From Pseudomonadota bacterium (GTDB taxonomy: Bacteria > Pseudomonadota > Alphaproteobacteria > Acetobacterales > Acetobacteraceae), in assembly GCA_021851785.1 (NCBI GenBank), contig JAJZBV010000012.1, positions 1-64,000 of the forward strand: a stretch of 64,000 nucleotides of DNA. Reading direction: 5' to 3'. The notes below the pieces were generated by a model, which worked only from the letters and a program-made list of their open reading frames with translations, searched no databases and was not told where the DNA came from. Within the stretch, counting starts at the first letter, position 1. Each line of letters starts with the position of its first letter. Made by a program: the position numbers and the translations under genes. Below are positions 22,828 to 50,784 of this stretch, in pieces.

Positions 22828-22936
22828 CAAAAAAGACTTTCTTCCCGTTTTCTCGGAGCGGGCAGTGCCGCAGGCACTGCCCAACGGATAAAAGTTTTTG
22901 GTTCTTTTTTTCAAAAAAGAACGATTTTTTCTTCCC
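22828..22936. repeat. Interspersed palindromic repeat, copy 2 (GC hairpin 22860-22882, AT hairpin 22901-22922)
   Basis: gggcagtgccgcaggcactgccc and gttctttttttcaaaaaagaac. Confidence 0.9.
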
Positions 22937-28341: not shown

Positions 28342-28425
28342 CTTGCAGCGGCGGTGCCGAAGGCACTGCCGCAACGGGGGAAAGTTTTTTGGTTCTTTTT
28401 TTCAAAAAAGAACCCTTTCCCTTTC
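28342..28425. repeat. Interspersed palindromic repeat, copy 3 (GC hairpin 28348-28372, AT hairpin 28391-28414)
   Basis: gcggcggtgccgaaggcactgccgc and ggttctttttttcaaaaaagaacc. Confidence 0.9.
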
Positions 28426-48311: not shown

Positions 48312-48382
48312 TGCGAGAGAAAACGTGGGGGAGAAATTGGTTCTTTTTTGAAAAAAAGAACCAAAAAACTTTTGTCCTGGGG
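48312..48382. repeat. Interspersed palindromic repeat, copy 6 (AT hairpin 48339-48362)
   Basis: ggttcttttttgaaaaaaagaaccaaaaaactttt. Confidence 0.9.
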
Positions 48383-48762
48383 TATTGTGTCGGCGGCGAT
48401 GCCACATAAAGGAAACGAGGAGGCGGGGCTTATACGAGGGCGCCTATCCGGCGACCTGTGGGGGTGGAAAGCGGGCCAGCAGCTCCGGGAGTAGCTGACC
48501 TGGAAAGGTGCCTCTCGGCAGTGTTTTCCCTCGTGTTGTGACGTATACTGAGTACTTTTCTATCCGCCAGAGCAGATCTCACAGCGGAACTCGGTGCGGG
48601 TGCGGAGGCGCGACATTCTGCGGTCGGTAGCGATTTTGACCATCGCGCGCGTTAACGAGTTTCGATAAATTGGCTTTCGGTAAGCGATGGTTTAGGCGGC
48701 TGTGGTCGCCTCGTATGCCACACGAAGCAGCTTAATCCAACAATCTTTCCAAGCAGAACCCC

Positions 48763-49871
48763 ATGGATCAAACCACCGACGAACAACCATTTGAGATCGA
48801 GGACGAGTTCAAACTCGGCATCGATGCAGGCGTCGAAGATGAGAGCGCCGAAGAAGCCACGAGCGTCAGCTTTAGCATCACGAGCTATGGGGCCGACTAC
48901 CCGGTCGATACCCTAGTTAAGCGGATGAAGGGGGAGGCGTTTTTCATCCCAAAATTTCAGCGTAACTTCGTGTGGTCGCAGAGACATGCGTCTCGCTTTA
49001 TCGAATCTTTGCTGATGGGCCTCCCGGTTCCGGGGATATTCCTTTACAAGGAAGCAGACACCGGGAAACATCTTGTCGTTGATGGCCAACAACGACTGCG
49101 TACTCTTCAGTATTTCTACGCCGGTGTGTTCAAAGATAAGGCATTTCGCCTCATTGGTGTCCGCAAGGAGTGGGAGGAAAAATCTTATGGAGACTTACAA
49201 CCCAACGAGCAACTTAAGCTTGATGACTCGATTGTCCATGCCACGGTGTTCCAGCAGGATGAACCGAAGAATTCTCTGAAAAGTTTGTACTTCGTATTTG
49301 AGCGGATCAACTCTGGCGGTATCCGTCTTTCACCGCAAGAGATCCGGAACTGCATCAGTGAAAGTGCGGTGCTCGAGGCGGTACGCGACCTGAACGACGA
49401 TCATAACTGGCGCGCGATTTTCGGCTCCAAGAAAAACAATCGACTGAAAGATCAGGAGCTAGTTCTACGCGCCCTGGCCATGATCCATGATCGCGCCAGC
49501 TACTCCGCTCCGATGCGGGATTTCTTGAACACCTTCGCGGCCGACGAAGAGAACAAGGTTCAATCTGCAACGCTAGACGAACTGCAACGTCTCTTTCGGC
49601 GGTCAATGGAAATCATTTTCAATACGAAAAAAAAGCGGCGTTTCGGCCTGTCCGAGCATTGAATGCCGCCGTTTTTGAAGCCGTTACCGTCGGCATCGCT
49701 GAACGCTTGCGTGCCATCAAGCAAGCTCCTGACCTTAATAAAGTCACGGCCGAATATGACAAACTGCTTACAAATCAAGAGTTTTTGGGCGCTTCGAACA
49801 GCGCTACCGCGACCGAAGAATCGGTGAAGACCCGTCAGCGTTTGGCCGTCGACGCATTTTCTGGTACCTGA
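48763..49871 (+). CDS. DUF262-domain (GmrSD N-terminal-like/ParB-related) protein, interrupted by an apparent -1 frameshift at 49629-49635
   Basis: Zero frame 48763..49662: FFIPKFQRNFVWSQRHASRFIESLLMGLPVPGIFLYKEADTGKHLVVDGQQRLRTLQYFYAG (DGQQR motif). The -1 frame continues AAFRPVRALNAAVFEAVTVGIAERLRA...TATEESVKTRQRLAVDAFSGT, stop at 49869-49871. Confidence 0.85.
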
Positions 49872-49873
49872 AC

Positions 49874-50344
49874 TTGTCGATATCGGTTAATAATCGTTTC
49901 CGAGAGGTTGAAAAACTCGTAAACGCAGCTCAAGACAAGAATACTGATCCGGAGACAGCCTCTTATTACTGCAAACTCGGATGCATTATGATTTGCGGCA
50001 CAATAGAGCGCTCGGTTGAAGTCCTCGTCACCGAACGAGTCGCGCAACGATCGGCCCCTCAGATTTCCATGTTCCTGAAATCATTCTTCAAACGCGGAAA
50101 TAACTATGATTGTGATGAGATCGAAAATCTTCTCTTCAGATTCGACAGTAATTGGGGTCATGTGTTTCGAGCCTATATCGAGAAGCATGATGAGATAAAA
50201 GCTAGCATTTCCTCATGCTATGCTGTAAGAAACTCGATTGCGCACGGCGGCATCCAATCATTGGGGCCAAAGATATTGAGGCAGTATTTCGATAATGCCT
50301 TTACGTTGATTGCCGAACTCGAGGGTTTCCTGCGGTCTAATTGA
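49874..50344 (+). CDS. HEPN-domain protein (putative RNase; RiboL-PSP/MAE_28990-like)
   Basis: TTG start 2 nt after the DUF262 stop; helical 156-aa protein with CYAVRNSIAHGG, matching the HEPN R-x4-6-H motif (R at 50228-50230, H at 50243-50245). Confidence 0.72.
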   Translation: MSISVNNRFREVEKLVNAAQDKNTDPETASYYCKLGCIMICGTIERSVEVLVTERVAQRSAPQISMFLKSFFKRGNNYDCDEIENLLFRFDSNWGHVFRAYIEKHDEIKASISSCYAVRNSIAHGGIQSLGPKILRQYFDNAFTLIAELEGFLRSN

Positions 50345-50445
50345 AGGACTGGCATTACGCGCCGTGCCGGCGCTGATCACCACCGCCGGGCAGCCGCAAG
50401 GCATGTGCGCGCCCGCCCGCACCGCCCGGCACGCGATACGACGTA

Positions 50446-50505
50446 TTGAGAGCAAAAGTTTTTTGGTTCTTTTTTTTCAAAAAAGAACAATTTTTTCTCT
50501 CGTCC
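50446..50505. repeat. Interspersed palindromic repeat, copy 7 (AT hairpin 50466-50488), inverted relative to copy 6
   Basis: Minus strand reads GTTCTTTTTTGAAAAAAAAGAACCAAAAAACTTTTG. Confidence 0.9.
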
Positions 50506-50784
50506 CGACCTTAAAGCGCCTTAGAAAAATTCATACCGCCTTACGTCTCGCCGAGGGGCCATTCGGCTTGCCCCGGGCGGGCGCGGCCGGCTCCGGTTTT
50601 CGGGGCATGAGAGCGGTTTCCTGAAAATCGTGCCGTTGATCCGTTTTGAGGCTGTTTTCGCTCCGGCGGACCGGCGCCCTCGGCAGGGATCACTCCCGCG
50701 CGGATGGTTTTCGCGGCATTACCCGACGATTTTCGTCAAACGGGATTGACCTTGGCGTCATGCTTCGGAAACATTGGGCGTGCG

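Follow-up and report, generated by a model that had tools for sequence, protein, structure and literature searches.

In the 64,000-nt stretch of DNA analysed here (the window), a DUF262 gene is divided between two reading frames exactly at an A_AAA_AAG heptamer, which raises the question of whether its product is completed by programmed -1 ribosomal frameshifting, as in dnaX, or whether the gene has been broken by a homopolymer lesion. The original prediction named both possibilities.

A DUF262 gene in two frames

The zero-frame DUF262 ORF extends on the plus strand from the ATG at 48763 to the TGA at 49660-49662 (299 codons), its last codons being ACG (49624) AAA AAA AAG (49633-49635) CGG CGT TTC GGC CTG TCC GAG CAT TGA. 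The three lysine codons contain an A8 tract (49627-49634) followed by G at 49635, which is the only run of eight A on the plus strand of the window and its longest A tract. Within this A8G tract (49627-49635), A_AAA_AAG occupies positions 49629-49635 in the phase required for a -1 slip. From 49635, the -1 frame reads AAFRPVRALNAAVFEAV... for 78 residues and terminates at the TGA at 49869-49871, 2 nt upstream of the TTG start (49874) of a HEPN ORF.

The two pieces match the same defence-protein profiles in succession (PD-T4-2_A positions 54-286, then 293-362) and therefore represent one gene in two frames. The -1 frame segment (49635-49871) aligns with the C-terminal portions of two PADLOC profiles, PD-T4-2_A and NsnA (309-376), so that the tail is the real missing part of the protein. 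Direct reading of the codons thus bears out what had been described of the site, namely, a DUF262 gene split at a heptamer in the correct phase, the missing C-terminal part in the -1 frame, and an end of that frame 2 nt before the HEPN gene.

An accessory DUF262-HEPN cassette

The HEPN gene (49874-50344, plus strand) is intact and encodes a 156-aa RiboL-PSP-HEPN protein (Pfam PF18735, E 3.7e-18; PADLOC PD-T4-2_B, E 1.1e-7) that retains R-N-S-I-A-H, an Rx4H motif that we take to be significant in such proteins. The truncated 299-aa product of the DUF262/GmrSD_N gene (48763-49662, plus strand) has an intact N-terminal domain (Pfam PF03235, E 1.1e-29), and the best profile in the PADLOC search is NsnA (1.1e-57), with PD-T4-2_A at 1.7e-42. 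It retains DGQQR, the nucleotide-binding motif described for the DUF262 domain (PMC10952713). PD-T4-2 is a tested anti-phage system consisting of DUF262 and HEPN proteins (Vassallo et al. 2022, PMC9519451; domains listed in PMC10952713), and the window locus resembles it in its domains and their order, with RiboL-PSP-HEPN downstream of GmrSD_N/DUF262, and matches both profiles, but its DUF262 protein scores higher with NsnA and its gene is frame-broken. NsnA belongs to Menshen, in which the partner is an OLD-type nuclease (PMC10952713), whereas the partner in the window is HEPN; membership in Menshen was rejected because the locus has no OLD-type nuclease partner, and the flanking ORFs resemble, by eye, an FAD-type oxidoreductase and an arginyltransferase. 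Judging by domain content, the locus is an accessory DUF262 and RiboL-PSP-HEPN cassette of the PD-T4-2/Menshen-NsnA-like kind, and the DUF262 gene, located beside a HEPN RNase gene, is a probable anti-phage gene.

The cassette (plus strand, approximate limits 48431-50453) is missing at the corresponding place in the congener G185, whose contigs C30 and C20 are syntenic with the window contig, although the flanks in G185 lie on two contigs and part of the junction is unseen. Positions 136-226 of C20 match 48339-48430 of the window, and positions 304-425 match 50454-50584, with 77 nt between them. When five other genomes of the same genus were searched, none contained the DUF262 gene at E 1e-30. 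We infer a horizontal origin of the cassette.

Flanking the cassette are two copies of an interspersed repeat found throughout the genus (48339-48378 and 50454-50499), with the sequence GGTTCTTTTTT(C/G)AAAAAAGAACCAAAAAACTTTT and further copies around 22905-22920 and 28396-28412. The repeat is present in dozens of copies per genome in six genomes of the genus, with at least 80 matches in five of them, is often located near gene ends, and looks like a very conserved terminator. It also gives rise to many chance AAAAAAG sites; about half of the 18 AAAAAAAAG sites in the genome fall inside GGTTCTTTTTT..AAAAAAGAACC.

Relatives and the age of the break

Among 84,980 species genomes scanned, two contained close relatives, Chelativorans xinjiangense (L003) and Taklimakanibacter lacteus (L004), with N-terminal parts 84% and 79% identical to that of the window protein. 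In both, one uninterrupted frame (375 and 366 aa) encodes the DUF262 protein, ends directly before the HEPN start and contains neither A_AAA_AAG nor any A run of at least 7; their HEPN orthologues scored below the PD-T4-2_B profile threshold of 1e-5. The three-way DNA alignment contains one single-base gap in the window sequence, at the A tract, and all the remaining indels within the gene are in-frame. The 12 more distant relatives (about 30-47% identical), drawn from genomes of the same family, from the class, from the order of C. xinjiangense, and from a paralogue on another contig of the same genome, each have one open frame across the junction, and the heptamer is absent from the junction in all 14 relatives, close and distant. 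The junction in the relatives reads K-G-K-S-A-F or K-G-T-P-A-F, compared with Lys-Lys-Lys-Ala-Ala-Phe when both frames of the window are read together, the window lineage having become A-rich here. The plasmid copies from Hymenobacter, Kocuria and E. coli likewise carry an annotation of one DUF262 CDS each, and the gene downstream is adjacent to it or overlaps it by 4 nt (HEPN in Hymenobacter and Kocuria, hypothetical in E. coli). The viral contigs scanned contained no relatives. Uniformly single-frame orthologues without the heptamer were a finding that the original prediction itself had set against programmed frameshifting; of its two possibilities, the homopolymer lesion is supported, and the programmed shift is not.

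With the codons of each part read in its own frame, we obtained tail pN/pS values of 0.22 (window and C. xinjiangense), 0.29 (window and T. lacteus) and 0.30 (between the two intact orthologues), with amino-acid identities of 79%, 66% and 68%, respectively. By these measures, the tail in the -1 frame remains under constraint like the tails of the intact orthologues, and pseudogene decay of the tail was rejected, so that the break would be either recent or not present in the genome itself. Because synonymous sites are near saturation, this constraint indicates no more than one of three things: a break that is young relative to the divergence, continued expression of the tail, or no real break at all.

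We also surveyed the assembly for frameshifts. The stricter survey covered 11.6 thousand codons of genes conserved with G185 and yielded no true case; a single candidate was rejected as a stop-to-stop extension upstream of a start codon. In the laxer survey, of 28.7 thousand codons, every candidate resembled a gene boundary or an antisense frame, and no candidate coincided with a run of at least 7. The assembly is therefore not full of indel errors, although A8 tracts occur too seldom in coding sequence for the error rate at such sites to be gauged; a clean surrounding assembly makes a pure sequencing error less likely and does not affect a real mutation. In a large survey of frameshifted prokaryotic genes, frame breaks of this type confined to one genome were attributed to sequencing errors or recent indels (PMC3711429). 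The window case resembles these singletons in that the gene is broken in one genome and whole elsewhere, but differs from them in that the break happens to leave a shift-prone heptamer.

Two further DUF262 loci were encountered. On contig C34 of the same genome (216-2175, minus strand), a second DUF262 gene (396 aa) is in one frame, as is the 253-aa gene that follows it, which by eye resembles HEPN. A degraded DUF262 relative on a plasmid of Acinetobacter baumannii ATCC 17978 (NZ_CP074711.1, 1378-2507) is annotated in two pieces and broken at another position, so that DUF262 copies decay in other places too.

A lesion compared with slippage and frameshifting

We consider a single-base lesion, either a real recent indel or a sequencing/assembly error, in an acquired DUF262 and HEPN defence cassette to be the best explanation, with a probability of roughly 0.88. 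A horizontally acquired two-gene cassette would have lost one base in or next to the in-frame poly-A (Lys-Lys-Lys) of its DUF262 gene, through a recent true indel in the strain or through an error. If the break is real, the protein would stop at 299 aa and lack the conserved C-terminal ~75 residues, with consequences that might extend to the second gene. In neither the window nor the orthologues does the HEPN gene have a good ribosome-binding site, which suggests that its translation is coupled to that of DUF262, and in the relatives it starts at, or overlaps, the DUF262 stop. Given this arrangement, a premature stop about 210 nt upstream would probably abolish the coupling and, with it, HEPN output, leaving the cassette probably off. 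We infer loss of DUF262 function and a polar effect on HEPN. What had been noticed was, then, correctly seen, but the single-base break in the frame of this accessory defence gene is an ordinary one, and in other respects the locus is a further DUF262-HEPN defence cassette that is probably silenced.

A reversible change of poly-A length (phase variation), or RNA polymerase slippage on the A8 tract, could instead switch or partly rescue the gene. The intact tail and the presence of the longest A tract of the window at this very point are compatible with such a role, and poly-A slippage that rescues frames is documented in insect endosymbionts (PMC5009743), but the tract is short and absent from the orthologues, and the GC-rich genome is unlike the reduced genomes of endosymbionts, so that we regard this explanation as very unlikely. 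We find it implausible, too, that the site is a slippery one recently evolved in this lineage, with ribosomal or polymerase slippage keeping the output of full-length DUF262, and of the HEPN coupled to it, low and so restraining a defence system that is costly.

Lineage-specific programmed -1 frameshifting, yielding both the 299-aa and the full-length DUF262 protein and tuning HEPN translation by coupling, would account for the phase of the heptamer, the conserved tail, and the end of the -1 ORF 2 nt before HEPN. The first of these is uninformative: deletion of any base from an in-frame A9-G (Lys-Lys-Lys) leaves A_AAA_AAG in the frame-restoring phase, so that heptamer and phase are an automatic by-product of base loss and do not constitute independent evidence. 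The site shares heptamer and phase (49629-49635) with dnaX and IS-type frameshifting but lacks their other attributes, being conserved in no relative and without a Shine-Dalgarno-like or structural stimulator. No Shine-Dalgarno-like sequence is present around 10 nt upstream of the heptamer, the dnaX-like distance; anti-Shine-Dalgarno duplex energies are positive (unfavourable) at distances of 5-12 nt, and only a weak GGAAA (-3.3 kcal/mol) occurs farther upstream. The small stem TCGG-CCTGT-CCGA originally pointed out downstream is present (49643-49655, plus strand; 4 bp), but the fold of the downstream region is average for its composition (z = 0.10, equalled or bettered by 104 of 200 shuffles), and the stem is probably not significant. 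The host dnaX itself is one 664-codon open frame without the heptamer, the only AAAAAAG in the dnaX locus being located in a copy of the interspersed repeat. Taken with the heptamer-free relatives, these results make programmed frameshifting very improbable. Whenever an in-frame A tract suffers an indel, a classic slippery heptamer results in the phase that restores the frame, which cautions against calling programmed frameshifting without conservation or stimulators.

Some shifting at the site is a separate matter. In E. coli, A_AAA_AAG is among the most shift-prone motifs when stimulators are present, and these lift the best motif to 54%, whereas motifs without stimulators reach at most about tenfold over a background of ~0.05% (PMC4066793). 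Some full-length DUF262 protein may well be made in this way, and leaky low-level slippage probably occurs at the A8G site, as at any such tract.

We give almost no credence to a split gene producing two polypeptides, the second initiated by re-initiation at the tail-frame TTG (49659-49661) that overlaps the premature stop (TTGA, 49659-49662), since this TTG is the codon of a conserved Leu in RALNAAV, also present in T. lacteus, and no relative is split there.

A8G tracts elsewhere can sit within a long uninterrupted low-GC frame: on contig C4 of the same genome (73000-75500), an open frame of at least 705 codons, in what looks like foreign DNA, is intact despite two such tracts.
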